Positions 1-14,476 of a DNA stretch of 30,739 nt are shown here, piece after piece. The translations under genes were made by a program, and so were the position numbers. The DNA lies in the IMG/VR virus record IMGVR_UViG_3300010354_008420, positions 1 through 30,739 of that record; one strand, written 5' to 3'. A model generated the notes under the pieces. That model did no database searches, was not told where the DNA came from, and was given only the letters and a program-made list of their open reading frames with translations. Origin of the DNA: a virus. How positions within the stretch are numbered: the first letter of the stretch is position 1; each line of letters opens with the position of its first letter.

Positions 1-37
1 AATAATGAGAATGCACATGAAGATGCACAAATGACAT
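1..37 (-). CDS. dnaE: DNA polymerase III alpha subunit (DnaE-type), N-terminus only
   Basis: Partial gene cut by the left edge of the window. The 12 visible codons read MSFVHLHVHSHY, which matches the start of the PHP domain of bacterial replicative polymerase DnaE (usual form FVHLHVHSxYS). The ATG at 37-35 follows a good ribosome binding site, GGAG, 5 nt upstream. It lies just downstream of the SSB gene on the same strand, with only 21 nt between them, so both are probably on one transcript. The product would be the phage's own replicative polymerase, working with the SSB, primase and helicase encoded upstream. The motif is very characteristic, but only 12 residues are seen, so length, other domains and integrity are unknown. 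Confidence 0.78.
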   Translation of the reverse strand, partial: MSFVHLHVHSHY

Positions 38-58
38 TAACTCTCCGCCTTTCGACTA

Positions 59-724
59 CTACCAGGTTACATCGCTAGATGTAGATGGTTCTTCTTCTTG
101 TCCGCCTTCTCCATTAAAGAAAGCTTCTTGATTCGCATAGGGTAGGTCACGAATCGCAGTTTCTTCCAACTTATAAAGTTCAAGACTTGAAGCATCAAAC
201 TTCTCGTCATCCTTTGCAAGAGGAATTATTGTATAACTTGTATCTGTTTTTGTTCCAGATCTTTTAATTCTCCACATAAGGTTTGTGATTGAACCCATTT
301 CTCCAGCGTATTCAATTAATGTTGGAGTAACTGTTTTACCACTTGATCCTTGTGAAAGAATTGCGACATATGGCTCTTCATTGCCGTCATCTACTAATAC
401 ATTAATATATAGTCTTGAACGACCCTTCCAGCCAGCCTTGTAATCTTTTCTATGCTGCTCGCATCCCCAGCATTTGCCTTGATCTTCCATTGTGCAAAGA
501 GCTTTGCGACGATAATCTTTTGGATTTGTATGTTCTACTGCAATAAATCCTAAACCCATTTTGTCATTATACTCTGGTGAGTCTGGATCCAACTCTTGAA
601 GGAAACGAATTTTTACGCTTTCTCCATCTTCTAACTTAACCCAACGTGCTTTGCTTTCAGAACCACCCGTTGACTGTGGCTTATCTATTACCTTTTTTAA
701 AGCTGCTAATCCTGTAGCTTTCAT
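59..724 (-). CDS. Single-stranded DNA-binding protein, gp32-like
   Basis: 221-residue protein read as a phage single-stranded DNA-binding protein that would coat exposed strands during replication. Residues about 25-170 form the core, with a likely zinc site (Cys77, Cys85, Cys88, His91) like that embedded in T4 gp32-type SSBs. The last 20 residues are acidic and end in Trp, as SSB tails that bind replication partners commonly do. It sits between primase and DnaE genes, which supports the role. It has its own extended -10 promoter and a hairpin in its short leader, consistent with a protein needed in bulk. The ATG has AAGGAG about 7 nt upstream. The family call rests on the zinc pattern, acidic tail and context; no fold search was possible. 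Confidence 0.68.
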   Translation of the reverse strand: MKATGLAALKKVIDKPQSTGGSESKARWVKLEDGESVKIRFLQELDPDSPEYNDKMGLGFIAVEHTNPKDYRRKALCTMEDQGKCWGCEQHRKDYKAGWKGRSRLYINVLVDDGNEEPYVAILSQGSSGKTVTPTLIEYAGEMGSITNLMWRIKRSGTKTDTSYTIIPLAKDDEKFDASSLELYKLEETAIRDLPYANQEAFFNGEGGQEEEPSTSSDVTW

Positions 725-746
725 AATTTCTCCTTAGTTTATATTT

Positions 747-778
747 GACGGTATACATCCGTCTGTTTTTCTATTATA
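747..778 (-). promoter_or_regulatory. Extended -10 promoter and leader hairpin of the SSB gene
   Basis: On the minus strand TGATATAAT (TG-n-TATAAT; hexamer 773-778) is a perfect extended -10 element. No good -35 is seen at the expected distance, as is allowed for this class. About 10-26 nt downstream lies an inverted repeat, GACGG (747-751) and CCGTC (759-763) with a 7-nt loop, which would fall at about +4 to +20 of the transcript. It could be an operator or an RNA-stabilising 5' hairpin. The -10 lies at the very end of, and just past, the primase gene. Confidence 0.55.
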
Positions 779-1774
779 TCACTTTCCCCAAGATCGATAT
801 TCGAAATCGGATACCGCATTATTAATACATAGCTTTATTTCTTCATCTGTCATATCGCCAGCATCTTTTGCATCATGTGGATATATCTTACCATAATCAT
901 AGGAAGCCCACAAGAGGTTTTTATTTTTTAATTTACTTGCAATACTAATTCCCAAATTTCTTCCAGCTTCATCACTATCAGTCATAATTATTATTTTATT
1001 AAAATACCTATTTAATAATTTAATATTATCTGTTGACACGTGCCCGCCTAAAGTTGCAACCACGTTTGGAAATCCAGCCTGGTGGACACGTATAGCATCA
1101 AAACTAGATTCGACTACTACAACATTATCACCTATCCTTTTTGCTCTATGTATATTGAATAAAGTTTTGCTCTTAGGTAAATTTGTACTATTCTTAAATC
1201 TTTTGTCTGATATTGATCTTCCAACTAAGCCAACTGGAATTCCGTCGGGGCTATGTACTGGAACAATAACCATGTTTTGATTAGCAGAATAACCTAATTT
1301 AAAATAATGCATTGAATCTTCATTAATACCACGAGATTTAAAATATTCCTGTGCGACTTTACTACCGCCTAAAGAATTATATAAATTATCTAATATGTCT
1401 TGAGAAAACTCTACAAAATCTGGCTTATCTTCTAATATACTATTTAGTTCTTCTTCAAATATTTCTTCTTGACTTGAAGACTTTGATGATATAAACCTCA
1501 GTGCCTGAAAATCATTTTTATCTAATATCTTTTTTACCAAATCTACCAAATTGCCAGACTGGCCACAAGAGGGATTAAAACATAACCATGCTCCAGTTGT
1601 TGTACTTATACTAAAACTAAATGTGTGAACGTTATTGTGAAAAGGGCAAAACATAGATATATTATCATTTGATTCAGATAGTATTTCTAGCCCTAGAGAC
1701 TTTATTACACCCCTAATTTGGGACGGAGTGTACGTGGAATTAATTTCCCTTGTGCCATTCCCTCTGTATCCCAT
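779..1774 (-). CDS. DNA primase, DnaG-type (CHC2 zinc finger + Toprim)
   Basis: Makes RNA primers for replication. From the ATG at 1774 it is 331 residues. The N-terminal CHC2 zinc finger has Cys43, His46, Cys65 and Cys70 (CPFH ... CFNPSC). After a linker, the Toprim catalytic domain shows VVVVESSFDA with Glu222 and IIMTDSDEAGRN with Asp266 and Asp268, the metal-binding acidic residues. It is shorter than cellular DnaG and lacks an obvious C-terminal helicase-binding domain, common in phages. A longer version begins at TTG 1825 but would overlap the preceding gene by about 120 nt; ATG 1774 still overlaps it by 70 nt, so the exact start is uncertain. It lies two genes after the DnaB-like helicase, consistent with a primosome pair. 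Confidence 0.9.
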   Translation of the reverse strand: MGYRGNGTREINSTYTPSQIRGVIKSLGLEILSESNDNISMFCPFHNNVHTFSFSISTTTGAWLCFNPSCGQSGNLVDLVKKILDKNDFQALRFISSKSSSQEEIFEEELNSILEDKPDFVEFSQDILDNLYNSLGGSKVAQEYFKSRGINEDSMHYFKLGYSANQNMVIVPVHSPDGIPVGLVGRSISDKRFKNSTNLPKSKTLFNIHRAKRIGDNVVVVESSFDAIRVHQAGFPNVVATLGGHVSTDNIKLLNRYFNKIIIMTDSDEAGRNLGISIASKLKNKNLLWASYDYGKIYPHDAKDAGDMTDEEIKLCINNAVSDFEYRSWGK

Positions 1775-2001
1775 GCCTTCTTCTTTCCCACATAAACTCC
1801 TTGGATAGTCATTAGAAACTTCCAAGTCTCACCGTTAAATTCTACCGAAAACGCTGGGTCTATGTCAAGTATTCTGACATAACCCTTGTCTCTCATATCA
1901 TGAATTAGTAAGCTTTCATATTGATGTTTAATTCTTATTATGTCAGAATCATCTAAAAACTCTACATTAATTTGAAATCGCTTTATTCTTTTGTGTGTCA
2001 T
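1705..2001 (-). CDS. Hypothetical 98-residue protein between helicase and primase
   Basis: I do not recognise this family. The protein is basic overall and alternates short strands and helices; the C-terminal 25 residues are Lys/Arg-rich and could touch nucleic acid, although that is a guess. The reading frame overlaps the end of the helicase gene by 35 nt and the start of the primase gene by at least 70 nt. It starts at an ATG without a strong ribosome binding site, so translation may depend on coupling to the helicase gene. Amino acid composition looks like a real protein, not a shadow frame, and without it there would be about 200 nt of unexplained sequence in an otherwise packed operon. 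Confidence 0.6.
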   Translation of the reverse strand: MTHKRIKRFQINVEFLDDSDIIRIKHQYESLLIHDMRDKGYVRILDIDPAFSVEFNGETWKFLMTIQGVYVGKKKAWDTEGMAQGKLIPRTLRPKLGV

Positions 2002-3232
2002 TATTTAATTCTGGTAAATTTTCATAAATAGGCTTGATGATACCACGATTGATATCCCACTCTAAAAAGAATCTAAAGTCTTGGCCGTGACGATTCTTTC
2101 TTGAAACTACCTCAACCAAATCTGTATTTGCATGCCTATGAATCGCCATTGCCATATCAGCATCATATTCAATTGCTTTTGACCAAGCGACTTGGCTCAT
2201 CATTGGAGGCTCTTTTTGATCAGATATATCATCAGCGGTTGCAGCAGTAATATCAATAATTGGAATATTATTTGACACTGCTAAGAGCTTAAAGTCTCTT
2301 GAAATATTTCTATTTCTTTCTACTTCTGAATTACTACGCTTATTATCATTAAACAACTGATGATAATCTAAAATAACTAAATCTGGTTTGTGTTGATCAA
2401 TTTTGCCTTGTATTGTCGCAGGCGTGACTTCCGCAGTGCCTTCGTTAGAAATAAGGATAAAGCTGTTTTTCCCTGAAGTTGTTTTCTTTCCCCATGATTT
2501 GAAGTCATCTAAGTTTATATCTCCTTTTGATAAATCGCTAGCTCTAAATAATCCAGAGCCAAGCATTGTGTATATTCTATCTCTCATATTCTCTGGAGCC
2601 ATTTCCAAAGACACTATCATTGGCTTAAATCCCTGCTCCCAGGCCTTACAGGCAAGATATGAAGTAAACCATGTCTTACCTCTACCTGGCCATCCTATGG
2701 CCACGATAAGGTGTCCTGGGGCCATTCCTGTAGGATATGCTCTGTCGATTGCATCAATGCCAGTTAATATGCCTGGGCTACCGCCCATGGCTGCAGACCT
2801 TTCTTTTACCGACTGATAATGTCTTTCTGCAGCATCTATATCAATTACATCAACGTCTCTAACATTATTAGTGAATCTACTTAGTGTTGCTAACTGTGAC
2901 TGCATATTCCCAAGCACACGAGATGCGGCATCTTCTTTTAACGCAGAACCAGCCTGCAACATAATTGTCTTAAGTCTACTTGAAACAAATTCATTCTTAA
3001 GTTTATCTAAATAATACCCAGTTTCTGCAGTTGTTTTAACTGGCTCAAAATCTTTATGGCGTTCCATTAATACGCCAACTTCTGGAACAGCTTTAAATTT
3101 ATAATAATATGACTTTAAACTGTCCCAAATATCTCTATGAGACGTAAATAGTTCATCGGCATTATCTGCTAGAAGGGTACTTATATCTTTATTTTTGCAT
3201 ACTGCAGATATTATCTCTGCTTCTGTATTCAC
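1967..3232 (-). CDS. Replicative DNA helicase, DnaB-like
   Basis: 421-residue hexameric-type 5'-3' helicase that would unwind the phage replication fork. Residues 1-120 correspond to the helical N-terminal domain; the RecA-like ATPase follows. Walker A is GWPGRGKTW (about 180-188), the conserved IVSLEM segment is at 206-211, Walker B is LVILDY (285-290), and near the C-terminus SRKNRHG and FFLEWD match the DnaB H4/arginine-finger region. Its GTG start overlaps the stop of the upstream gene by 4 nt (GTGA), so the two are translationally coupled. The primase follows downstream. Length is slightly below the usual 450 residues, typical for phage versions. Confidence 0.92.
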   Translation of the reverse strand: MNTEAEIISAVCKNKDISTLLADNADELFTSHRDIWDSLKSYYYKFKAVPEVGVLMERHKDFEPVKTTAETGYYLDKLKNEFVSSRLKTIMLQAGSALKEDAASRVLGNMQSQLATLSRFTNNVRDVDVIDIDAAERHYQSVKERSAAMGGSPGILTGIDAIDRAYPTGMAPGHLIVAIGWPGRGKTWFTSYLACKAWEQGFKPMIVSLEMAPENMRDRIYTMLGSGLFRASDLSKGDINLDDFKSWGKKTTSGKNSFILISNEGTAEVTPATIQGKIDQHKPDLVILDYHQLFNDNKRSNSEVERNRNISRDFKLLAVSNNIPIIDITAATADDISDQKEPPMMSQVAWSKAIEYDADMAMAIHRHANTDLVEVVSRKNRHGQDFRFFLEWDINRGIIKPIYENLPELNNDTQKNKAISN

Positions 3233-3543
3233 TCTTCACCCTCTACTAATCTTTTTGTTTTCTCAAGAAGCATGTTTCTGAGAACTTTATCTTCTTCAAT
3301 TTGAAGCATCATATCTTCCAACCTATCAAAATTAAAATAAAAAAACTGTAAGGGATGTCTGTCTTTGCCTGTTTCAAAATAATATTCAAGAACCTTCTTT
3401 GCACGATCATACCCTATGCTATCTACGACATCTTGCATAGCCCACTTTTCTTTGTACTTATTTAAAGATGGACTTTTACCATATTTATCCTTATATAAAT
3501 TTTGATATAAAGACAATAGGATATATGGTTCTTTACTTGCCAC
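3229..3543 (-). CDS. Small protein preceding the helicase, possible helicase loader
   Basis: 104 residues, predominantly helical, with many aromatic residues in the centre (FFYFNFDRL around 67-75) and a charged helical C-terminus. It starts at a GTG that overlaps the stop of the preceding gene by 11 nt and ends in a GTGA overlap with the helicase gene. Many phages encode a helicase loader or replisome organiser immediately before the helicase, so a helper role is a reasonable guess, but no loader motif or ATP-binding motif is visible. It could instead be an unrelated small replication protein. The gene itself is well supported by the coupled arrangement. Confidence 0.72.
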   Translation of the reverse strand: MASKEPYILLSLYQNLYKDKYGKSPSLNKYKEKWAMQDVVDSIGYDRAKKVLEYYFETGKDRHPLQFFYFNFDRLEDMMLQIEEDKVLRNMLLEKTKRLVEGEE

Positions 3544-3739
3544 TATTTAATTCTTCTTCCACTTCCTGTGTTTTTTCTACCAGTTTCGATTCAACAAATT
3601 TATAAACACGTTCAGTAGCCATGTCCACGTTTTCTTCTGGGCGAACAAAATCTTCTACGCCAATACCAATTTTGATGCTTTCAAAATTTCCTAAATTTCT
3701 TGTAAATGATAAATCAACTTTAACCTTTGTTTCAGACAT
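3533..3739 (-). CDS. Hypothetical 68-residue acidic protein
   Basis: Function not recognised. The first half reads as beta-strands (KVKVDLSFTRNLG, ESIKIGIGVEDF) and the second half as an acidic helix rich in Glu and Lys, suggesting a small alpha/beta fold with a helical tail. Its ATG overlaps the stop of the tiny zinc-finger gene upstream by 1 nt (TAATG), and its own stop overlaps the start of the next gene by 11 nt. That chain of overlaps makes it a real member of the replication operon. No metal-binding, membrane or catalytic motif is seen. Confidence 0.7.
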   Translation of the reverse strand: MSETKVKVDLSFTRNLGNFESIKIGIGVEDFVRPEENVDMATERVYKFVESKLVEKTQEVEEELNSGK

Positions 3740-3852
3740 TATTTATGTTCCGCCTTTCTGTGCCTATTTAAAGTATCGTGAGCAAATATGCCCCAACGAA
3801 CTTCTATTTCTTTTTTACAAATATCGCATATAACGACTTTGCCTTTTTCCAC
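3739..3852 (-). CDS. 37-residue C2H2-type zinc-finger miniprotein
   Basis: Too short for ordinary gene finders but well supported. From a GTG at 3852 it encodes 37 residues with Cys9, Cys12 (CDIC), His25, His31 and His36, a compact C2H2-like zinc-binding pattern, and a basic C-terminus. The GTG shares one base with the TAG stop of the upstream HTH gene (TAGTG), and its TAA stop shares one base with the ATG of the next gene (TAATG), so it fills exactly the 112-nt gap. Very small zinc fingers in phages commonly bind nucleic acid or host proteins; its target cannot be inferred. It sits among other probable zinc proteins in the same operon. Confidence 0.75.
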   Translation of the reverse strand: MEKGKVVICDICKKEIEVRWGIFAHDTLNRHRKAEHK

Positions 3853-4331
3853 TAGTCCGCCTTCCAAACAGGAACGAATCCCGTATCGGTCTTAGTATAC
3901 AATATTAAATTGTGTTTGAGAAGAGCTCTTAATTCGTTTTTTGAAGGCATACTCTTAGAATAACCTGATTCTAAAATAAACTGATGTATATCCATTATAT
4001 CCGATTCGCTAAACATAAACTTAAACCAAGTGCTTTCTGAATTCCCAATTGGGTATACTTTTTGCGGATATTTAATTTTGCCGTCAAGAATATAATCTTC
4101 AATTGTAATTTTATGTTTATTTAAAATTTGTGCAACTTGTTTTGTTGAATATGCATTTTCCATGTTCTTAATAACTTGCGAATATGAATAAAGAACACGT
4201 TTTTTATCTGGATAGCACCAGGCGATTAGCTCATCTTTTGCCCTTGAATAATTTAATACTTTATGTATTTTATTATTTAGGAAGAAATAGCTAAATCTTT
4301 TAGTTTGTTTTTTTCTACTTGTTCCAGCCAT
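3852..4331 (-). CDS. Helix-turn-helix (MerR/excisionase-like) protein
   Basis: 159-residue basic protein. A winged helix-turn-helix resembling MerR or excisionase DNA-binding domains is visible at about residues 59-95 (AYSTKQVAQILN, then EDYILDGKI and YPIG). The N-terminus is strongly basic (GTSRKKQTKR). The C-terminal half is of unknown fold. It could be a DNA-binding regulator or part of the replication machinery. Its ATG lies 55 nt inside the preceding zinc-ribbon gene and has only a weak ribosome binding site, but no better in-frame start precedes the HTH. Its TAG stop overlaps the GTG of the zinc-finger miniprotein. No integrase is seen nearby, so a classic excisionase role is not suggested. 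Confidence 0.72.
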   Translation of the reverse strand: MAGTSRKKQTKRFSYFFLNNKIHKVLNYSRAKDELIAWCYPDKKRVLYSYSQVIKNMENAYSTKQVAQILNKHKITIEDYILDGKIKYPQKVYPIGNSESTWFKFMFSESDIMDIHQFILESGYSKSMPSKNELRALLKHNLILYTKTDTGFVPVWKAD

Positions 4332-4465
4332 CGGCCTAGTGCACTCGTATCCTTATTTATCATCCAACGCTTTCCGCACAATATGCAGAATAGCTCTACG
4401 TGAAGTTTTTGTGAAAACACACGATCAACAAAAACTCTGCCATTACATCTTGCACATTTCATCAT
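4277..4465 (-). CDS. Zinc-ribbon protein, 62 residues
   Basis: A small protein with two CxxC knuckles, Cys4/Cys7 (CARC) and Cys27/Cys30 (CILC), typical of a four-cysteine zinc ribbon, followed by a charged helical tail. I choose the ATG at 4465: it overlaps the metallophosphoesterase stop as ATGA and has AAGGTG 8 nt upstream. An in-frame ATG at 4495 would add 10 residues but lacks this arrangement. Zinc ribbons of this size often mediate nucleic-acid or protein contacts; nothing more specific can be said. It is the second gene of the operon driven by the promoter at 5316-5343. Confidence 0.7.
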   Translation of the reverse strand: MMKCARCNGRVFVDRVFSQKLHVELFCILCGKRWMINKDTSALGRWLEQVEKNKLKDLAISS

Positions 4466-5268
4466 AAAGTAAACACCTTGCCGTCTACTACACATGAATA
4501 ATCTGGAGAGACCTGAATCAATTGGACATGTGGATATTTACCATTTTCAATATGAGCAATTGCAAATCCCTTTTGCCAATCATGGTGTTGCATGTACTTC
4601 ATGCCTGGACCCTTTTCATCACACATATGTCCAATTTCATATCCACGAATTGTTTCACCCTTACCCTTATTTCTCAATTCATATGTTTGAAAATGTGATG
4701 CAAGCCTATGGGAATGTCCACGTATTAAAGAAACTTGTAAAGAATTCATGTCAGCTCTTACCGCTCCAGCATCAGCAATAGAAATACCATGATGCACGTG
4801 AATATCGCCGTAGCGCTTCTTTGGCAAAGCATCATAATAAATATAACTATATCCTAAAGAATCTAAATTCCATAATGCTTCTGGAGTAACAATATTTATA
4901 AAATCTGGAAGCTTAGCATCCATATAGTTAAAAATACGAATGTCATGGTTTCCTAAAGCAGTAAATAATTCTGCATCTGGTCCAGCGACCTCTCTGTTTT
5001 TTGCATAAAACTCTCTTGCACCTTTTGCTTCATGCTGCATTAAAGGAACAATTGCTGCTCCATTTTGATCTTTATACATTTTAAGAAATTCAGCAGATCT
5101 TCCTTCAGTATATTTACTATAGCATGCTTGATCATCTGTATCTCCAAGTATGTCTACAACATGTGGTTTAAACCAATCCATGACCTTAAACCAAAGCTCG
5201 ATCATTTTGTTATCTTGGTATGGGAACTGTTGGTCGGATGACAACATCCACCTTAAATCATTTGTCAT
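4462..5268 (-). CDS. Calcineurin-like metallophosphoesterase
   Basis: 268-residue protein carrying the dimetal phosphoesterase signature: SSDQQFPYQD near residues 10-19 (the D-x-H motif has Gln in the His position), GDTDD at 42-46, GNHD at 106-109, HVHHG at 157-161 and GHSH at 184-187. Such enzymes cleave phosphodiesters or phosphomonoesters in nucleic acids, nucleotides or proteins; the substrate is not evident. The GDTDD form and missing first His are departures from the commonest motif. It is the first gene after a near-consensus promoter, with AGGA about 7 nt before the ATG, so it is probably expressed early. It lies at the border between tail and replication modules. Confidence 0.88.
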   Translation of the reverse strand: MTNDLRWMLSSDQQFPYQDNKMIELWFKVMDWFKPHVVDILGDTDDQACYSKYTEGRSAEFLKMYKDQNGAAIVPLMQHEAKGAREFYAKNREVAGPDAELFTALGNHDIRIFNYMDAKLPDFINIVTPEALWNLDSLGYSYIYYDALPKKRYGDIHVHHGISIADAGAVRADMNSLQVSLIRGHSHRLASHFQTYELRNKGKGETIRGYEIGHMCDEKGPGMKYMQHHDWQKGFAIAHIENGKYPHVQLIQVSPDYSCVVDGKVFTL

Positions 5269-5287
5269 TTATTTCCTAAAATATATT

Positions 5288-5308
5288 ACATTAATAATGC
5301 ATTAATGT
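5288..5308 (-). promoter_or_regulatory. Inverted repeat at the predicted transcription start (operator candidate)
   Basis: ACATTAAT (5288-5295) and ATTAATGT (5301-5308) are perfect 8-bp inverted arms around AATGC. The repeat begins one base past the predicted start point (about 5309) of the promoter at 5316-5343. That position suits a repressor operator or a 5' RNA hairpin; being A+T-rich it would be a weak hairpin, so an operator is the better guess. Confidence 0.5.
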
Positions 5309-5315
5309 GTAGTAA

Positions 5316-5343
5316 ATTGTAACATAAAAAAACAGGTTGTCAA
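5316..5343 (-). promoter_or_regulatory. Near-consensus sigma70-type promoter for the replication operon
   Basis: On the minus strand TTGACA (5338-5343) is separated by 16 nt from TACAAT (5316-5321), differing from the ideal bacterial promoter by one base and one nt of spacing. It lies just past the stop of the small structural gene and 48 nt upstream of the metallophosphoesterase ATG. It is the best promoter in the window and probably drives genes from 5268 down to the primase or beyond. Confidence 0.8.
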
Positions 5344-5350
5344 GATTTAA

Positions 5351-5770
5351 TTATCTAGTGACTTCTCTATTTTCAACAGCAATAAAATTAACTGTAACTG
5401 CTTTTGTATATTTATTATCTGAGCAATTAACATAAATTGTAGCAGAATTAGCTCCAGTAACTTTTGAGCCGACAGAAAATACAACATTACTACTAGATAC
5501 GTTTATTCCAAGTGCTGCTACCATGTTAGGTACTGTTTGAAATTGACCGTTAAAATTGATAGTCTTGCTTCCCTTTCCTGCAGACATCGGAACAGATGTA
5601 GTATCGGCATACACAAAGGGAATAGTGGATTTTGTAGTTCCACCAGAAGTTAAATTTAATAAATTATTAGATGCATTCCAGGCTTCTGTTATGTTAGTTT
5701 GTAGTTGATTTAATTGAGATGGGTCTATTGGAGCGCCTTGATAGAATGTAACTGCTTTAAAATCAGCCAT
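5351..5770 (-). CDS. Small virion/tail-associated protein
   Basis: 139 residues from the ATG at 5770, which has GGAGG 6 nt upstream; an in-frame TTG at 5785 is much less likely. The N-terminus (ADFKAVTFYQGAPIDPSQLNQLQ) resembles the start of tail-fibre-associated or appendage proteins, with a short helical segment followed by a beta-rich, Ser/Thr/Val-rich C-terminal domain (about 50-139), reminiscent of small receptor-binding or capping domains. It is the last gene of the tail module, directly after a coiled-coil gene whose stop overlaps its start. Function is inferred from place and composition only. Confidence 0.6.
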   Translation of the reverse strand: MADFKAVTFYQGAPIDPSQLNQLQTNITEAWNASNNLLNLTSGGTTKSTIPFVYADTTSVPMSAGKGSKTINFNGQFQTVPNMVAALGINVSSSNVVFSVGSKVTGANSATIYVNCSDNKYTKAVTVNFIAVENREVTR

Positions 5771-5915
5771 TATTATCCTCCGCAATCTTTTCTTTTTCTT
5801 TAATTAATTGTGTTATTTCTGATCTAAGGGCAGCAATTTCAACCTCATAGTTTGAAACAAGCTCTCCTATTCTTTGATGTAAAGCGTTAATTATTAGTTC
5901 CATTTTTTCTGTCAT
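5763..5915 (-). CDS. 50-residue coiled-coil protein after the tail fibre
   Basis: Short gene that fills the gap between fibre and final tail gene. It starts at ATG 5915 with AGGAGA 5 nt upstream and stops at TGA 5763-5765, 8 nt inside the next gene, so the two are coupled. The protein is almost wholly helical with heptad-like spacing of Leu, Ile and Val and ends with a charged EKEKIAEDNNG-type tail. A small trimer-forming coiled coil, a fibre chaperone or a structural minor protein are possible; no enzyme motif exists. Confidence 0.68.
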   Translation of the reverse strand: MTEKMELIINALHQRIGELVSNYEVEIAALRSEITQLIKEKEKIAEDNNG

Positions 5916-5945
5916 AATTCTCCTAGTTAGAATTTAATAATACCA

Positions 5946-8846
5946 TTATCCTTCAATAGCGTCAAGTCTCTGTTCTATGTTTTCTAACCTATCTTTAATT
6001 TCTTTTATAGCCAAGACAAGTAGAGCTGACATTCTGTCGTAGGCTACGCTGAGTGGTAGTCCATCAGCATCATAGTTTACAATACCCTTAAATTCTGGTA
6101 TAAGATCAACATCTTCTGCAATTAAACCAGAGATTGTTGGCTCTTCTTCATTTTCATTTATATAATTAAAGGATACTGGAGATAATTGATATGTTGCATC
6201 CAAATACCCAGATTTAGAAATTTCAATTATATTCTCCTTAAATCTTCTACTAGAAGTTGAAACTTTAAGGAATCCAGAAGAATTTTGAACAACTGTTGAT
6301 CCTGTCGTTGTTCCTGAACCTTGATTTAAAGAATTGGCATATATACCACCATCTGAATATAATCTTGTTCTAGGCCCGTTAGTTGCTGGTGCTGCAACTG
6401 GAGTATCTGAACTTCCGTCTCCTCCTACCATTACGCTTCCTGTTAATCTCAAATGTCTCCATCTATAGGGGTCTGTAAGGTAAGTTGGACTATACTTAAC
6501 ACCAAGATCTGCTGCTCCATCATAGTATGGATACCATGAGCTTACGACTCCAGCAGTTGCTGTACTAATTAAACCAATTCCATTAAATCCAACACAAGTA
6601 ACAGCACCATATCCTCCAAATGGAGCTCTTTGATATGATGAGTAAAAAGCGTTTGACTGTGAAGTATTAAAAGATGAGCCTCCTCCAGAATCCGAATCTC
6701 CTGTATCTGCAGTAAATGATGTATTGGAAATATTTATGCTTCCGCCATTAATAACAGAACCATTAATTGTTGTTCCAGTTATCGATGACCCACTTTTTAT
6801 TTGTCCAGTAAATTCTGCTGATGTTGCAAATAATTTTCCATCTGCTTGAACTCTAAATACGCCAGCTGAAGTTGAGCCTCCGTCTGTACTGTGATATATA
6901 TAAGATTTAGCAGCATCAGTTCCTCCGCCTATATCTGCTGTAGGATTAATTATAATGGCGTTGCCTGACGATGTTCCAAATCTTGCCTTACCTGTATTAT
7001 CTAATCTAAATGTAGAACCTGCTTCATTTGCTCCATTTTGAATTGCATCCGCAGCAATTAAAATTCCACCTATGTTTCCACCATTTGCTTTTATTGTTCC
7101 TGTTAAATCTACGCCAGACGCATTTAAAATTCCATTAGTGTCTACTGTAAAATTTGATGTCGTAATTTGTGTAGCTTTTAAGTGTCCAGTTACTGTGACA
7201 CCACCGCCAAGTGGTGCTTCAAAAACTGGGCTACCGCCTGAATTATAAATGTATAGTCCTGCAGGTATTCCACTTGATGCACTAGCAGACATATCTATTC
7301 TTCCGCCACCAGCAGCGCCTGCACGAATATATGTGGTAGTTTTTAGCGATCCAGCCTCTAAATTATTTACAGATATTGTTCCTGCTGATAACTTAGTTAC
7401 ATCAATTTCTCCAGCTTGTATTTTACTTGCTGTAATTGCATTAGTTGCAATCTTATCTGCAGTAATAGCAGAGGAAACAATTTTATCTGCAGTAATAGCA
7501 TTAGCTACAATCTTAGCAGAAGTAATTGCATTTGCTGCAATCTTATCAGCTTCAATGGCATTTGCTGCAATTTTTTCTGCAGTAATTGCTCCTGCTGCAA
7601 TTTTTCCAGCTTCTACCGAACCCGCTGCTAATTTAGCAGCCGTGATTGCGTTTGCTGCAATCTTGTCAGCATCAATTGCATTTGCAGCAATTTTATCTGA
7701 AGTAATAGCAGAAGCAGTAATTTTATCTGCAGTAATTGCATTAGCTGTTAATTTTGGAGTAGTGATAGCATCATTTGCAATTGCAGTAGATGTAACTGCG
7801 TTAGCAGCTATTTTTGCTGCAGTAATAGCAGCATTATCAATTTTAACTTCAGTGATTGCACCAGCTGCAATTTTAGCTGCAGTAATTGCGTTATTATCAA
7901 TTTTAACTTCAGTGATTGCAGCAGTAGCAATTTTAGCAGCAGTAACAGCATCATCAACTAATTTAGCATTTGTAATTATGTTATCTGCTAAATCTGAAGG
8001 TACCGCAGATCTAGCTCCTGTAGCTTGGTTTGTAACATTTGAAACTATGGCAGATTCTTCGCCTTTTTTATTTAAAGAACTTGCATGAAAATAAACTGGT
8101 TGATCATACCTAATATAAGTTCCATCTACTGGGGCAACAATTTTATTGCCAGTTTTATTTGCGGTCATTTGACCAACTTTTATGTATGTCCCAGAAGTTG
8201 CTGTTGAAGATGTGCCAGCATATATATTAATAGCCTGGAATCCATACCATTCTGCACCGCCAGTATAAGTGCCGTCCCACGCTACTTCAATTCCTGAAAG
8301 AACTCTTTCTGAAGTAAATCCTTTTGGAGTAACTGGAGTTTGAACTTCTTCCTCTTGTGAAGGAACTGTAATTGTATATCCTTCACTAAAAAATGAAGAT
8401 ACGCCACTCTTATAATAAACTTTAATTTGTACTATATATATTCCTGGCTCAGCTTTAAATAAATGCTTAAATGATCCTTTAAATGAACCTGCTGGCTTTG
8501 TTCCGTCTCCGTATGAAGTACCAGAAATGTGTACGTCTACTCTATCAAATTGAATTGGATCTACATCTACTCCAGTTCCAACTTGTCCGTTCCATTTTAT
8601 AATCATTCCGCCAGGTACTGCGACAACATCACCTGGTTCAAATTTTGGATCTCCTGGCAACTCTTCATTAGGAGTAATTAAATCTTTTCTTGCACTCCAC
8701 TTGCTAAAAGTATTATCTTTATAAGCCCATCTAAACTGTAAAGGGTATGTTGTTCCAGGCTTAAGTCCAGTTAAAATTACTTTAAAATATCCAGCCCTGT
8801 CTGACTTTACAGGTTTATCTTGTAACTCTTCTTCTGGTAAAGGCAT
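5946..8846 (-). CDS. Tail fibre with C-terminal S74 intramolecular chaperone
   Basis: 966-residue receptor-binding fibre. Residues about 1-275 contain fibronectin-III-like beta domains (GLKPGTTYPLQFRW and similar). Residues 288-497 are 21 ten-residue repeats of the form xNAITAxKIA, predicted to make a long trimeric shaft. A Gly/Ser/Thr-rich beta region follows, and the last ~102 residues form a peptidase S74 domain: Ser865-Ser866-Arg-Arg-Phe-Lys870 matches the S-x4-K self-cleavage site and the end is a coiled coil (IKEIKDRLENIEQRL). The domain helps the trimer fold and then cuts itself off before Ser865. The ATG overlaps the upstream stop as TAATG. The N-terminus begins within what looks like a fibronectin domain, so it presumably docks onto the upstream tail protein. 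Confidence 0.9.
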   Translation of the reverse strand: MPLPEEELQDKPVKSDRAGYFKVILTGLKPGTTYPLQFRWAYKDNTFSKWSARKDLITPNEELPGDPKFEPGDVVAVPGGMIIKWNGQVGTGVDVDPIQFDRVDVHISGTSYGDGTKPAGSFKGSFKHLFKAEPGIYIVQIKVYYKSGVSSFFSEGYTITVPSQEEEVQTPVTPKGFTSERVLSGIEVAWDGTYTGGAEWYGFQAINIYAGTSSTATSGTYIKVGQMTANKTGNKIVAPVDGTYIRYDQPVYFHASSLNKKGEESAIVSNVTNQATGARSAVPSDLADNIITNAKLVDDAVTAAKIATAAITEVKIDNNAITAAKIAAGAITEVKIDNAAITAAKIAANAVTSTAIANDAITTPKLTANAITADKITASAITSDKIAANAIDADKIAANAITAAKLAAGSVEAGKIAAGAITAEKIAANAIEADKIAANAITSAKIVANAITADKIVSSAITADKIATNAITASKIQAGEIDVTKLSAGTISVNNLEAGSLKTTTYIRAGAAGGGRIDMSASASSGIPAGLYIYNSGGSPVFEAPLGGGVTVTGHLKATQITTSNFTVDTNGILNASGVDLTGTIKANGGNIGGILIAADAIQNGANEAGSTFRLDNTGKARFGTSSGNAIIINPTADIGGGTDAAKSYIYHSTDGGSTSAGVFRVQADGKLFATSAEFTGQIKSGSSITGTTINGSVINGGSINISNTSFTADTGDSDSGGGSSFNTSQSNAFYSSYQRAPFGGYGAVTCVGFNGIGLISTATAGVVSSWYPYYDGAADLGVKYSPTYLTDPYRWRHLRLTGSVMVGGDGSSDTPVAAPATNGPRTRLYSDGGIYANSLNQGSGTTTGSTVVQNSSGFLKVSTSSRRFKENIIEISKSGYLDATYQLSPVSFNYINENEEEPTISGLIAEDVDLIPEFKGIVNYDADGLPLSVAYDRMSALLVLAIKEIKDRLENIEQRLDAIEG
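7350..7985 (-). repeat. 21 tandem 30-bp coding repeats in the fibre shaft
   Basis: Degenerate 30-bp units encoding ten-residue repeats with Ala-Ile-Thr at positions 3-5 and Lys-Ile/Leu at 8-9. The DNA copies differ mostly at third positions but retain common blocks such as the complement of GCAATTTTATCTGC. Such arrays change length by recombination and so can alter fibre length. The same periodicity produces a long artefactual open frame on the plus strand. Confidence 0.85.
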
Positions 8847-9781
8847 TAGAAACTTAACTCCATACGATATTCTACATCAACTAGTCTTCCTACAATTTTT
8901 GTCAATGGACTAGAAAGCACTGATCTACTAATTAATCCATAGGTTGGGTCAAAAGAATCTTCGTCGTTAATTCTAAGCGCATCCATTCCAACTGTAGTTT
9001 GAACTCCAGACTTAGGAACAACCACTATTCCAATTTTATTTATTTTAGAAATATCTGGATTTTCTGAATTTGCTCCAGCATACAAAACAGACAATAGAAT
9101 ATCGCTAGATATTTTATTTCCTGTACCCGAATTGTCCACAATTTCTATTTCATAATAAGCAGCATCAGAACTATAAAATCTAATTTTTATTTTATCTAAA
9201 TTATTATCATTCTTATAATAAGAAAATTTAATTGAATCATTTACGCTATACCCAGAGAAATCTGTTTCTGTTATTGTACAAGAATATTCTTTTTCTGTCC
9301 CCGTTCCAGAAGTAAAACTTAAAACATCTTCTCCTATTAATGCCCCAGTTGTAGATCTTTCTGGATTAAATAAATCTGAATCTTGCCAAGCAAATTGATC
9401 AGAGAAGTCTGATATAAATTTACTGTCGAAACTATTAGATGAGGATCTTCTTGATGGATAAGTTCCAACTTCTTTTATTACGCCAGCCACGTCCACAGGC
9501 AGAACTGTTTTATATACAACAAAATATTTTATTCCATTTTCATCTGAATATATATCAGTGCTACCAAATTCTACTGGAAGTCTATAAAATTCAAATCCAA
9601 GTCTTGTATCTGTTTCAGTAGCAGCAGTAGAATCTATGCCAAATGCTAAATCTTTTTTATGATCAGTTATATTTCCCGCAATAAAATTGGTAAGAAATCT
9701 TTTACCGTATAGAGTAATTATATTTTCTGATCTATATATCTCTTTACCATTTTCGCTAAATACGTATGTACCCTTAACCAT
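8846..9781 (-). CDS. Minor tail protein, fibre-proximal
   Basis: 311 residues, beta-rich, rich in Ser, Asp and Tyr, without enzymatic motifs. The N-terminal segment (YRSENIITLYGKRFLTNFIAG) resembles the start of proteins that attach to tail tips. Residues about 120-240 look like a carbohydrate-binding-type beta sandwich, and the C-terminus (GRLVDVEYRMELSF) is typical of a structural subunit. Its ATG lies 8 nt inside the upstream gene and its TAA overlaps the fibre ATG by one base, so it is in a coupled chain from tail tip to fibre. A fibre-base or adaptor role is likely but inferred from context. Confidence 0.62.
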   Translation of the reverse strand: MVKGTYVFSENGKEIYRSENIITLYGKRFLTNFIAGNITDHKKDLAFGIDSTAATETDTRLGFEFYRLPVEFGSTDIYSDENGIKYFVVYKTVLPVDVAGVIKEVGTYPSRRSSSNSFDSKFISDFSDQFAWQDSDLFNPERSTTGALIGEDVLSFTSGTGTEKEYSCTITETDFSGYSVNDSIKFSYYKNDNNLDKIKIRFYSSDAAYYEIEIVDNSGTGNKISSDILLSVLYAGANSENPDISKINKIGIVVVPKSGVQTTVGMDALRINDEDSFDPTYGLISRSVLSSPLTKIVGRLVDVEYRMELSF

Positions 9782-10187
9782 TTCCTACCTCTGTTTTCTT
9801 TTCCTTTTGAATATCTACCCATTCCACCGTGTCTGGAAATTTAGAAGTATTCTTAATATATATCTCATACTCCCAGTGTAACTGGCCATTAATATAAATC
9901 TTTTTTGGAGGATATACTATTTCTACAGAATCTAGGGACACTACATCTATTCCTCCGCCTGGATCTTCTTCCCCTTTTTCATCGTCTCCTTTAATTCCAC
10001 TGTCTTCTTCCCTAGATTTAAAATTTAGATTTGAGAAGTTAGAATCTTTAATGGGCTCCAGAACTGGATTTTCATTTTTTACCTTGCTAGGATTTAGAAA
10101 TAGGGCAGCCTTGCTACCTGGAGCTACAACAACAATAGGAGACTCCTGCTGTCTAAGTAGTTTTTTTACAGTATCTTTGGTTGCCAT
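9774..10187 (-). CDS. Hypothetical tail-region protein with disordered acidic centre
   Basis: 137 residues in three parts: a basic helical N-terminus (about 1-15), a low-complexity acidic Gly/Asp/Glu-rich middle (about 60-80), and a C-terminal beta region (KKIYINGQLHWEYEIYIKN). It lies between two tail genes on the same strand, so a minor structural or assembly role is likely. Its stop is overlapped by the next ATG in the junction AATGGTTAA, which also occurs at the 26874-26881 junction. No family recognised. Confidence 0.58.
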   Translation of the reverse strand: MATKDTVKKLLRQQESPIVVVAPGSKAALFLNPSKVKNENPVLEPIKDSNFSNLNFKSREEDSGIKGDDEKGEEDPGGGIDVVSLDSVEIVYPPKKIYINGQLHWEYEIYIKNTSKFPDTVEWVDIQKEKKTEVGNG

Positions 10188-10206
10188 TTTTTTATTATAC
10201 CATTAC

Positions 10207-11904
10207 CTATATTGTCCTGCATACTACGTCTGTAGAAAGGCCTTGCTGAAAAGTATGGGATACCTCTGTAACCACAAGGCTCTCTGTTCCAACAAAATTC
10301 TGATAAGCATATTTAATTGAAACAATATCTCCTATTTGTATTAATGGATTTCCAAAAATTTTCATTTTTACTATTCTTCCTTTATTAATTATTTGTGTCT
10401 TTATCCAGTCTCCCAAAGATTTAGCGTCTTCTAATCTTTGTACCCATGTTGTTTCAAACACCACTGGTCTTTTTACAGCATAGTCGTTATCCATTTTTGT
10501 TTCATATTCTAAAGTTGATGATTCAGTAATTGGATTTCCATATAAGAAAAAGTTTGCTGCATTCCCGTCAGCAAGAGGAGTGGTTGTTGAGCTATTATTA
10601 ATTGCCCAAACTTGAGATGAAAAGTTATTATAATCTTGTGAAAGAATAGATACTGCAGAATTTACTCCAGTGTCCCACCCTATAGGGTAGGCTGGAACTT
10701 TATTAAACTGTACATCAAATTTTCTAATTTCTCTAACAACAGTACCAAATTCATCAATAAAGTTTTTTACATTGCTTGGTAATTCTCCTTCTTGAAATTT
10801 TAATTCTCCAAAGGCTGTTGACAATAAATCTTTAGAATATCTTCCATAATATTTGTTTGTAATTGCAGAAACATCAGAAAACTTTTTTTCATCTATCTCT
10901 AAAGCGTACACATAATCAAAATGAGCTTTTCCTCTTGTACAAAGAAGAGCAATTTTTTGTGTAGGATCTACAATTTTAGTAACCTTTTTAGTCCCAGTGT
11001 CGTACTTGCTTGTGTCGGATGCAGAAAATTTTATTCCATTGATATATGCATTCATCTCAATTATTTTGCCTGAAACTTTAACTCTTATATCTACATTATA
11101 TATTTCTCCTGCAAATATTGAGACATCTATTGTTTCAGCTAATGTCTCTACTCCGCTTTTACCTGTTACTAACTTTACCCACCTTAATGTTTTCCTGGAT
11201 GTTTCGGCAGCTGATGATGCTGTTTCCATAATGAGGTAGTATCCCTTATTTCCTCTTTCATCTGCAAAAAATCCTATACCTGCTCCAGACTTACCGTTAT
11301 CTAGATCCGCAGCAAATCTAAAACTTGTACCGAAAGAATAGTATTTTGTTGAATATGAAGGTACTGTATTTTTACCCCCAGGTAATAGTACTGGGGAGCT
11401 TGTAGGTAAAACTACTGATTCAAAAGTTTTTGTAGCAAGTGTATTTTTTTTATCGTCTGATTGTTTAGATGAAAGAGTTAAATATCCTTTATAAAAATTA
11501 CTATTTATATCTTTTGGATCTGTAGAATTTCCTAATAAAGATTGACCTGCTATTTCTTCGTCCATGGTAAATGTAGGAGTTGTTAAAACTTGCGTTTCTT
11601 TATCTTGAGAAGCAAAATATGCAACAATTTCTAATTTATACTTATTGCCTTTTAATAAATTAGGAACAATAAATGTCGAAGATGTAGGATCTGGATCTAG
11701 TGGAACTGGTGATGTTGCTGTTGTTACATTTATAACATTTACCTTATAAAAAGATGGCTCTTCATCCATGTTCATAGTTTCAACAGTTACCTCGACTGCA
11801 TTATCAGATATTTGAATTATTTTAGGAGAATTTATAATAGATTTGTTTTCATCAACTCCAGCGTCGTTATCGAGCATGAACCCACCACTAAAAGCTAACA
11901 CCAT
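10207..11904 (-). CDS. Minor tail/tail-tip protein with lectin-like domain
   Basis: 565 residues from ATG 11904, which overlaps the upstream stop as TAATG like three other tail junctions here. An in-frame ATG at 11934 has GGGAGG close upstream and would add 10 residues, so the start is not certain. Residues about 25-110 look fibronectin-III-like; about 185-340 resemble a concanavalin/LamG-like beta sandwich (SFGTSFRFAADLD ... GIGFFADERGNKGYYLIME) that may bind surface sugars; the C-terminal 150 residues (IQIGDIVSIKY, VVTEVSHTF) resemble baseplate-hub beta modules. It follows the large tail-tip gene, suggesting a receptor-contact or hub role. No catalytic residues identified. Confidence 0.7.
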   Translation of the reverse strand: MVLAFSGGFMLDNDAGVDENKSIINSPKIIQISDNAVEVTVETMNMDEEPSFYKVNVINVTTATSPVPLDPDPTSSTFIVPNLLKGNKYKLEIVAYFASQDKETQVLTTPTFTMDEEIAGQSLLGNSTDPKDINSNFYKGYLTLSSKQSDDKKNTLATKTFESVVLPTSSPVLLPGGKNTVPSYSTKYYSFGTSFRFAADLDNGKSGAGIGFFADERGNKGYYLIMETASSAAETSRKTLRWVKLVTGKSGVETLAETIDVSIFAGEIYNVDIRVKVSGKIIEMNAYINGIKFSASDTSKYDTGTKKVTKIVDPTQKIALLCTRGKAHFDYVYALEIDEKKFSDVSAITNKYYGRYSKDLLSTAFGELKFQEGELPSNVKNFIDEFGTVVREIRKFDVQFNKVPAYPIGWDTGVNSAVSILSQDYNNFSSQVWAINNSSTTTPLADGNAANFFLYGNPITESSTLEYETKMDNDYAVKRPVVFETTWVQRLEDAKSLGDWIKTQIINKGRIVKMKIFGNPLIQIGDIVSIKYAYQNFVGTESLVVTEVSHTFQQGLSTDVVCRTI

Positions 11905-14000
11905 TATGCCCAGGAAGCTTTGTAAGCCTTCCATCCACCTCCCGTAAAAGCCTCACTAGTTTTAACATGGGCTGCAGGAGTAGTACCTAAAGCGCCCCTC
12001 TGTTTAACCCTCAATTTATTACTTGGACCGAAAGTTACATTTAAAATACCTGTAGAAGGATCATACCGTCTACTTTCTGCTAGCGCTTGGTACTTTGCAA
12101 CATCAGATTCAGATTCAATCCAAACATATTCTACTTTCTTATTTAACTTATTAACTAATTTATATTGCACAGCATCATACTCTATAATTTCAGAATTAAT
12201 AACTAAATACCCTGAATAAGAAAATGGAGAAAATATATTATTATACTCTGTCATTTGATCTATTTGAATTTCTATACCATCGCCTGCTGCTGGACTAGAA
12301 GAGGTAGTTTCAGATAGCAAAGCTCCTGCAGCAAGATAACTGACTGGAGAAGAATAAAGTGCTTCTGAAGATCCTATTAAATTAGAATTAAATGGGCTAT
12401 TATAAATAACCTTAACCTGATTAGCGCTTGGTATTTCTTTATGGCTGAAAAATGCTATGTTAGGAAGAGTTGTTCCGTCTTGTTCGTATGTAAATGTAAA
12501 AGATTTTTCTTTTGTATTGTCATATATATAGTTTCTACTTGATATTAATAATGTCCCATACTCATCAAAAAAAGCATTCATCTGTGTATCATTACATATT
12601 TCTTGAATTGATTCCCAAACGCTTTTTCTTCCATCTGACCACCAATAATTTATTAATGGAATTGAGTTGTCTGATTTAACATTTATTCCAAGAACTGGAT
12701 CGACTTCTTCTTTAATATTAAAATAATAGTTAGTAAATCCTACAGAATCTAGAAGCCCAGTAATTACTCCCGTTGCTGGGTAAGATTCATATAATCTTTC
12801 TGGAGCTATCGATTCCATTAAAAATTTTGCATAATCAAATGCCTGTATGTTTACAGAACCGTAACTAGATATCTCCCATGAATCTATATAAAATACTCCC
12901 TGCTGAACTACATCATAATTTGATGTTACAGTTACTGCATTACTGTGATAAATTTTAAAATAAGTTTTAATTTCTGCTTTTGCAACCATGTAAATAATAT
13001 CTGGATTAATAGATGAGTCTTCAAAATTATAATTTTTAATTTGCAAGGTAGCATTATTCATAGAGTTATCTTCATATCTAGCTAGATCTAAAACCATTGA
13101 ATTAGCAGAAACTTTTCCAACTGGTAGTATATCTTCTGAATTTGCAGATGCTTCTTTTTTAATCTGCATAGAAACTATATCTTCAGATATATCCTTTACA
13201 AGTCTTCCAGAAACTTCTATCAATCCTATTATTTTATCAGATTGATTGTTTGCTGTAACCCTAATCTTTTCTACCTCTAGTGGATTAGCATACTTAAATT
13301 CTGTTCCGTCACTATTAGCATAAATATCATTTAATCCCGCTTCCCATGCGTCTACAGATTTATCAACATAGTGTAAAATTAATTTGCCATTAAAAATGCT
13401 TGTATATGTTCCAATAAGAGTTTCTGGCTGATTCTTTAATTTTATATAAACGCTGCAACTTGACGGAATGTAATGAAATTTTTCAAAGGTAATAATTATT
13501 TTATTTATAAAAGCTGTTTTACTAGAGTTTGAATTAACATAATTTACAGACACATCTAAGTTCTTACCAATTGGAGTAACAAAATATTTATATTCATTAG
13601 TATCTCCCGCATAATAAACTCTAGGCATATCGCTAGGGTACTCGTATGTCCTTAAAGAAGAATAGCTGTATGGTGGTCTTAAATTTAAATTGTCGGATTG
13701 CTTTTCAATAAATTCAGATGGAGTAGAAATATAATATTTAACTCCTCCAACTTGCGGCCTAAATGGTTTAACAATAGAGTCTACTGGAAATAATTTTTTA
13801 AAAGGATTAACTTTTAATAAAGCTGGTGTACCATCTGAATTTTTTACTTGTGATATATAATCACTATCTGTTGCAGTAGTAGTTACTGTTAAATTCTCTA
13901 ATAAAGAATTCATATTATATTCTATTCTTGCACCAGGTTTGGCAACAATAGAAGATTGTTGTTTAAATAAATTAGTTAAGTTTGAGGATATATTTAACAT
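11904..14000 (-). CDS. Tail-tip/hub protein (Tal- or baseplate-like)
   Basis: 698-residue protein in the position of the tail-associated hub, two genes downstream of the tape measure. The N-terminal half contains a beta-sandwich of discoidin-like look (about 150-270: SSCSVYIKLKNQ ... KIRVTANNQSDKIIGLIEVSG); the middle (about 330-520) resembles the ring-forming hub fold of siphovirus tail tips (WEISSYGSVNIQAFDYAKFLMES). I see no lysin motif. The ATG overlaps the previous stop by one base (TAATG) with AGAGGT about 4 nt upstream. The role is to close the tube and hold fibres; the assignment is from position, size and composition. Confidence 0.7.
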   Translation of the reverse strand: MLNISSNLTNLFKQQSSIVAKPGARIEYNMNSLLENLTVTTTATDSDYISQVKNSDGTPALLKVNPFKKLFPVDSIVKPFRPQVGGVKYYISTPSEFIEKQSDNLNLRPPYSYSSLRTYEYPSDMPRVYYAGDTNEYKYFVTPIGKNLDVSVNYVNSNSSKTAFINKIIITFEKFHYIPSSCSVYIKLKNQPETLIGTYTSIFNGKLILHYVDKSVDAWEAGLNDIYANSDGTEFKYANPLEVEKIRVTANNQSDKIIGLIEVSGRLVKDISEDIVSMQIKKEASANSEDILPVGKVSANSMVLDLARYEDNSMNNATLQIKNYNFEDSSINPDIIYMVAKAEIKTYFKIYHSNAVTVTSNYDVVQQGVFYIDSWEISSYGSVNIQAFDYAKFLMESIAPERLYESYPATGVITGLLDSVGFTNYYFNIKEEVDPVLGINVKSDNSIPLINYWWSDGRKSVWESIQEICNDTQMNAFFDEYGTLLISSRNYIYDNTKEKSFTFTYEQDGTTLPNIAFFSHKEIPSANQVKVIYNSPFNSNLIGSSEALYSSPVSYLAAGALLSETTSSSPAAGDGIEIQIDQMTEYNNIFSPFSYSGYLVINSEIIEYDAVQYKLVNKLNKKVEYVWIESESDVAKYQALAESRRYDPSTGILNVTFGPSNKLRVKQRGALGTTPAAHVKTSEAFTGGGWKAYKASWA

Positions 14001-14476
14001 TATACCTCTTCCATACTAAGAGAGACATTCCAGAAAGCGTTTACTCCTCGCTTAACTAATTGAAAACTACAATTTGTAAATGATACGGTATATTCTTCTT
14101 CGTTAGCAGTACCATAATCTTTTGAACCGCCTTTTGCAAAATTTAATCTAATTTTAAAAGTTGATTTTCCTGAAGTGCTTTTATAAAATTCTCTTAAATC
14201 TTCCGCCCCCCACTTACCATCGGCTGTTTGAACCCTGTATGACGGGAGCATTGTCCAAGAAACATTAAACATTTTTTTATCATTTACATAAAATTTTCTT
14301 AATGTTCCGTTTGCCATTCTTTGAGTTTCTTCAATTCTCAAAGAAGATACATCTACTTCTGACCTATTATGATCAGATAATTCTACCCATGTTTCGGAAT
14401 TAAGTGCGGGAGTAGCAAGAGGATCTTTTGCGTATACTCTTATTAAATTACCCTTTGGTAATGTTATAATTGTCAT
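14000..14476 (-). CDS. Distal tail protein candidate (Dit-like position)
   Basis: 158 residues, beta-rich, directly after the tape measure gene, where long-tailed phages place the distal tail protein connecting tube and tip. The sequence has alternating strands (MFNVSWTMLP, FKIRLNFAKGG, EYTVSFTNCSF, WNVSLSMEEV), consistent with a tail-tube-derived fold. Both ends overlap neighbours by a single base (TAATG), implying fixed translation ratios. It is shorter than classical Dit proteins, so it may be only the tube-like domain. No enzymatic motif. Confidence 0.66.
   Translation of the reverse strand: MTIITLPKGNLIRVYAKDPLATPALNSETWVELSDHNRSEVDVSSLRIEETQRMANGTLRKFYVNDKKMFNVSWTMLPSYRVQTADGKWGAEDLREFYKSTSGKSTFKIRLNFAKGGSKDYGTANEEEYTVSFTNCSFQLVKRGVNAFWNVSLSMEEV

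Follow-up and report, generated by a model that had tools for sequence, protein, structure and literature searches.

The 30,739-nt stretch of viral DNA analysed here (referred to as the window) carries a near-consensus promoter and an inverted repeat directly ahead of its replication genes, and in many actinophage-like genomes a corresponding promoter and predicted leader hairpin are kept together at the head of the operon. The promoter is probably that of the replication operon, of the type read by the primary sigma factor, and the repeat probably gives the operon mRNA a hairpin at its 5′-end and is not an operator. What had been a single suspected operator would thus be a cis-element of replication control that is conserved among a large group of environmental actinophage-like genomes; the element also occurs in culturable Streptomyces phages, where it is directly testable. 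A literature search of open-licence papers found no description of a promoter-hairpin element of this kind.

The promoter and the inverted repeat in the window

The two promoter elements, 16 nt apart on the minus strand, match the consensus at 11 of 12 positions (Table 1). The features of an extended −10 promoter for the primary sigma factor, namely a −35 element, a spacer of 16–18 nt, A2 and T6 in the −10 element and a TG, were all found. The predicted transcription start falls at the repeat or one base before it. The arms of the repeat (5308–5301 and 5295–5288) are of 8 bp each, both perfect and 5 nt apart; the stem they would form begins 7 nt after the −10 element, that is, no more than about one base from the assumed +1, and precedes the ribosome-binding site. 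The initial annotation had described this arrangement, TTGACA-16-TACAAT followed by ACATTAAT-5-ATTAATGT at the predicted start, and it is indeed present. Its view of a strong promoter where the tail genes meet the replication genes was also borne out, the promoter being kept at that junction in relatives.

Table 1. Features of the promoter region and of the neighbouring genes in the window (all on the minus strand)
Feature	Position	Strand	Basis
−35 element TTGACA	5338..5343	−	sequence; exact in 114/117 distinct upstream regions
Extended −10: TG (5324–5323), T, TACAAT (5321–5316)	5316..5324	−	promoter scan
Predicted transcription start, 7–8 nt past the −10	5308..5309	−	deduced from promoter spacing
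Inverted repeat ACATTAAT-GCATT-ATTAATGT	5288..5308	−	read as a 5′-terminal RNA stem-loop
AGGA, probable ribosome-binding site	5274..5277	−	sequence
Gene just upstream of the promoter, tail side	5351..5785	−	no family match found
Metallophosphoesterase, first gene of the replication operon	4462..5268	−	PHROG 221, E 5.1e-52
Small protein with CxxC pairs	4277..4495	−	PHROG 12850; sub-threshold NCBIfam dual CXXC match
HTH protein, possibly MerR-like by fold	3852..4331	−	PHROG 9440; Pfam HTH_17 below cut-off; Foldseek
DnaB-like helicase	1967..3232	−	family matches
DNA primase	779..1825	−	family matches
Single-strand DNA binding protein	59..724	−	PHROG 9721

The promoter is beyond chance even when taken alone: the window contains one extended −10 promoter with at least 11 of 12 matches, against a mean of 0.1 in 30 first-order Markov simulations. 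A looser promoter scan of positions 1–15000 returned 67 sites (65.2 expected). The repeat taken alone is much less remarkable. Perfect 8-bp arms separated by 3–9 nt occurred at 12 places in the window, with a simulated mean of 4.8, and the exact repeat occurred once. The leader folds at −5.0 kcal/mol (z −1.94; with 21 further upstream bases, z −0.23), and the energy of the stem itself is about −2.5 to −5 kcal/mol. The stem is AT-rich and is followed by AATATATT, with no U-tract. Rfam gave no match in window positions 4900–5800, nor in five relatives.

Translation of the metallophosphoesterase would begin at the ATG at 5268. Upstream of the promoter lie long tail-side genes, likewise on the minus strand, and from their gene content the two groups would be expressed early (replication) and late (tail). 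An ORF of 3445 aa on the minus strand (14476–24813) is probably the tape-measure protein, judged by its position and appearance. A scan of genome contigs for the metallophosphoesterase gene found no relative, and the Actinomycetota hosts are therefore deduced from relatives only.

Conservation of the promoter and the leader hairpin

Upstream regions were collected by way of the metallophosphoesterase protein, and thus independently of the motif. Two protein-seeded scans supplied the best 80 of 535 and the best 80 of 577 relatives which, with the window, made 161 rows; four were too short and were dropped, and merging identical 110-nt regions reduced the 157 usable rows to 117 distinct ones. 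In this best-80-per-scan sample, TTGACA was exact in 114 of the 117 distinct regions, the spacer was of 16 nt in 109, the −10 was extended in 104 and it read TACAAT in 85. Nearly all 117 showed a hairpin between promoter and start codon, mostly of a sequence other than that of the window. GTCACG was paired with CGTGAC or CGTGGC in 71/117, and most of the others had different stems at the same place. The hairpins of most relatives resembled terminators (GTCACG-n4-CGTGAC-TTTTTT); that of the window's clade is AT-rich, 5′-terminal and devoid of a U-tract. Five distinct leaders, those of the L225 group, had just a short stem reaching into the start codon. Since both TTGACA and a hairpin are kept in relatives to this extent, the pair of promoter and repeat in the window is also beyond chance.

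The leader hairpins had a mean score of 18.9, against 9.6 (sd 2.9) for shuffles. A score of at least 13 was reached by 90% of 82 leaders and by none of the 55 other extended −10 promoters found on the same contigs within 1.5 kb upstream, which have short leaders. A motif scan gave at least 120 matches; among the 120 listed, 117 had a metallophosphoesterase gene 16–57 nt downstream, two were cut by the contig end with the gene start still visible, and one lay elsewhere; the promoter was upstream in 118 among the 120 matches listed. Three records of 114–120 kb contained one copy each of the promoter and hairpin unit. In two relatives (L010 and L046), a gene that looks by eye like an oxygenase gene has been inserted before the metallophosphoesterase gene, in the region at 3.2–4.0 kb of each, and in both the promoter and hairpin precede the inserted gene, which indicates that they belong to the operon start. 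These two were excluded from the stem counts, leaving 115. The sole match among the 120 listed that is not placed before the gene (L102, 4236–4260, minus strand) has a similar hairpin in another context. In L043, L053 and L058, the leader and the tail-side sequence are like those of the window's clade while the metallophosphoesterase falls into another group, a mismatch that suggests recombination at the boundary between the tail and replication genes.

The isolates most closely related are phages of Rhodococcus and Streptomyces. No promoter-hairpin unit was found directly upstream of the gene in the Rhodococcus phages Trina, NiceHouse and Weasels2, nor in the Streptomyces phages Circinus, Muntaha and Ankus. 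All five phages of the Boydwoodruffvirinae type inspected (Braelyn, Tomas, StarPlatinum, HangryHippo and Coruscant) had the promoter and a short leader with no comparable hairpin. The seven Loccivirinae examined (Annadreamy, Blueeyedbeauty, Sham, Moab, Comrade, Jada and Forrest) had TTGACA-17-TAnnnT and a strong leader hairpin ahead of the same gene. They resemble the window in this combination of TTGACA promoter and leader hairpin before the metallophosphoesterase gene, but differ from it in their GC-rich stems of 10–14 pairs, in the internal position of the hairpin and in having an HNH gene upstream.

Pairing in the leader and the operator hypothesis

The initial annotation had read the repeat as the operator of a repressible promoter. 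A phage repressor, perhaps the autoregulating HTH protein, would bind over the start site and shut the promoter. The perfect symmetry of the repeat and its position over +1 agree with this, as does an HTH gene within the operon, a relative of which was found in all 15 related records searched. A DNA palindrome and an RNA hairpin differ, however, in the irregular pairs that they should tolerate: G-T and A-C alike in the former, and G-U in the latter when read on the transcribed strand. The stem search gave G-U and A-C an equal penalty, and only distinct stems were counted. The 30 distinct core stems of the environmental set contained 12 G-U, two A-C and three other irregular pairs. Six distinct stems scoring above 15, from 12 Streptomyces phage isolates with the promoter, contained 13 G-U and no A-C pairs. 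This excess of G-U over A-C is not predicted by DNA symmetry and points to RNA.

Covariation was examined in the 13 stems with a 4-nt loop, in which 94.8% of the cells pair and five of the nine pairs change on both sides. Their covariation was 0.521, against 0.286 when shuffled (0/500), and lay above all slid controls; two other measures were weaker, the number of pairs with a double change giving 19/500 and that of further pair types 497/500. The hairpin of the window type (window, L002, L009 and L043) has all 32 pair cells paired despite five substitutions in the arms, although four sequences are too few for the pair shuffles (248/500) to be informative. From these comparisons it is concluded that pairing in the predicted RNA, rather than an operator sequence, is what has been kept.

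The operator reading fares no better in other respects. The arms are not repeated elsewhere in the window at up to two mismatches, whereas an operator would be expected to recur at other controlled sites, and a 120-kb relative has just four other places, each with two mismatches. In most relatives the sequence has been replaced where the promoter is kept, and a terminator-like hairpin occupies the same place. As regards the absence of the repeat from relatives with the same promoter, against which the initial annotation had set its proposal, the exact sequence is indeed absent but the hairpin structure is not. MerR-like proteins usually bind between the −35 and −10 elements, which also counts against a site over +1. 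The MerR likeness of the HTH protein is itself a weak match of a modelled fold: the best Foldseek hits to the AlphaFold model (mean pLDDT 80.7, 40 sequences) were of the MerR family, at a best E of 0.08 and none at 0.001, and Pfam HTH_17 scored 20.7 bits, below the cut-off of 27. Annotated HTH genes also occupy this place in Streptomyces and Rhodococcus phages, including some without the promoter unit, so nothing ties this protein to the repeat; its autoregulation through the repeat is possible but unsupported. Altogether, a repressor operator appears very unlikely.

Possible roles in termination, stabilisation and entry into the operon

In most relatives, the hairpin and its U-tract would act as an intrinsic terminator close to the promoter, an attenuator damping or gating access to the operon, which may also halt read-through from the tail genes. 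A U-tract followed 92 of the 115 hairpins, T reaching about 80–90% across the five or six positions after the stem. These tracts go with unrelated stems, which fits intrinsic termination. The threshold of a terminator score was passed by 77/115 hairpins, the window lying far below it; the G+C-rich stem and U-tract of an intrinsic terminator were accordingly found in relatives and not in the window. Expression of an operon whose promoter is directly followed by a terminator would call for an explanation, which counts against this reading. Were the hairpin an attenuator, these phages would control replication-gene entry by termination and not by a repressor.

In the window phage and its close kin, the hairpin is probably not a terminator, since it lies at +1, is AT-rich and lacks a U-tract, and the most likely remaining role would be that of a 5′-terminal stem-loop that slows mRNA decay. 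Its stem starts no more than a few bases from +1, given the assumed start; in the window's clade and a few others the stem start is at about +1. Hairpins at the 5′ terminus comprised 17 without and five with a U-tract, and internal ones three without and 49 with, a split whose cut-off was chosen post hoc, which counts related sequences and which is inflated where the stem was extended into the U-tract. Early-region terminators of the actinophage phiC31 reportedly have no poly-U tails, and would in this be like the actinophage early hairpins lacking a U-tract described here. In Bacillus and E. coli, mRNAs are stabilised by hairpins located at the 5′-end or close to it (PMC3997798). The window hairpin is similar to those described there in lying at about the predicted +1 and before the ribosome-binding site, but differs in its weak, AT-rich stem.

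The repeat of the window might instead be a product of chance or a decaying remnant that has lost its function. Palindromes of its size are common in the window (the 12 places mentioned above), it folds weakly, and the U-tract is missing. Nevertheless, it sits at the hairpin position of the family and, as noted, all pairs are kept in the window, L002, L009 and L043 through five arm substitutions, so that loss of function seems unlikely. About as unlikely is an arrangement in which the hairpin is the terminator of the late tail operon with the early promoter embedded in the same 3′ region, newly started polymerases passing the hairpin because it is so near the promoter. The tail-side stop codon lies, by eye, directly ahead of the −35 element in many relatives, a terminator-like hairpin with a U-tract is found in most relatives, and the palindrome described below would add a second hairpin in read-through RNA only. 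Behind the promoter, however, the hairpin would also form in the promoter's own transcripts; that of the window has no U-tract, and a strong hairpin at another place in the window comes ahead of a promoter-like site.

A second palindrome, ATG[T/C]TACA..TGTA[A/G]CAT, overlaps the −10 element and the start in 61 of the 104 regions with an extended −10 (for example L062 and L076), to which these counts are confined; the window lacks it. At the variable pair, 49 regions have T-A and 12 have C-G, and none of the 61 is mixed. At least eight switches between T-A and C-G were counted on the metallophosphoesterase tree, but leaders appear to recombine along with the tail side (leader types of the window's clade recur in L043 and L053), and the independent switches would therefore be fewer. 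The stem varies in length, over a span of 19–24 bp, with mostly about five central bases unpaired. This variable span does not suit a dimer operator of fixed spacing; a hairpin is likelier. A promoter on the reverse strand was also rejected, as by reading its −10 would miss the last T in several variants. Through its downstream arm, TANNNT comes to lie at about −1 to +5. In the 34 distinct regions that lack the palindrome, TANNNT was found near the start in 38%, against 20% when shuffled (p 0.012). The spacer between −35 and −10 is weakly conserved, with no clear binding motif.

Control of replication-gene entry by antitermination is best known from lambdoid phages. That the replication operon of a large group of actinophages is gated by promoter-proximal antitermination, a phage factor having to load on the polymerase at this one site for the operon to open, is considered quite improbable; it is suggested because TANNNT sits where an AlpA-controlled promoter has its pause element. 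Such gating would combine the extended −10 promoter, TANNNT as a pause-like element at the very start of the transcript and, about 25–35 nt downstream, a terminator. The covarying −10 palindrome would belong either to the loading site or to a second hairpin that arises in read-through RNA alone, and the switch would have been lost in the window's clade.

PalpB, which is controlled by AlpA, has a −10-like pause element at −1 to +5 (PMC9371919), and the AlpA and lambdoid Q systems (PMC9371919, PMC7969949) resemble the present one in that an intrinsic terminator lies between the promoter and the first gene; the TANNNT of the relatives' −10 palindrome, at about −1 to +5, is placed as is the PalpB pause element. 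They differ in that here no antiterminator and no clearly conserved motif between −35 and −10 were identified, in that the window has neither a pause-like element nor a U-tract, and in governing late or lysis genes where replication genes are found here. The put RNA of HK022, about 70 nt with two stem-loops, suppresses termination (PMC9378689). Like the present leaders, it is structured RNA encoded right after an early phage promoter, but the leaders described here have one short hairpin that, in most relatives, is itself terminator-like.

Two other sites in the window were noted. A second extended −10 promoter, TTGACG-17-TATTAT, lies at 5937–5965 (minus strand) ahead of a small gene (5763–5915), and similar TTGACG promoters, with short leaders and no hairpin, are found upstream in many relatives. 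Farther along the same strand, a strong G+C-rich hairpin (25563–25540) is followed by the promoter-like site TTATGTTATAAT (25518–25507). The order of this element (25563–25507), hairpin and then promoter, is the usual one, and is opposite to that of the replication-operon element.
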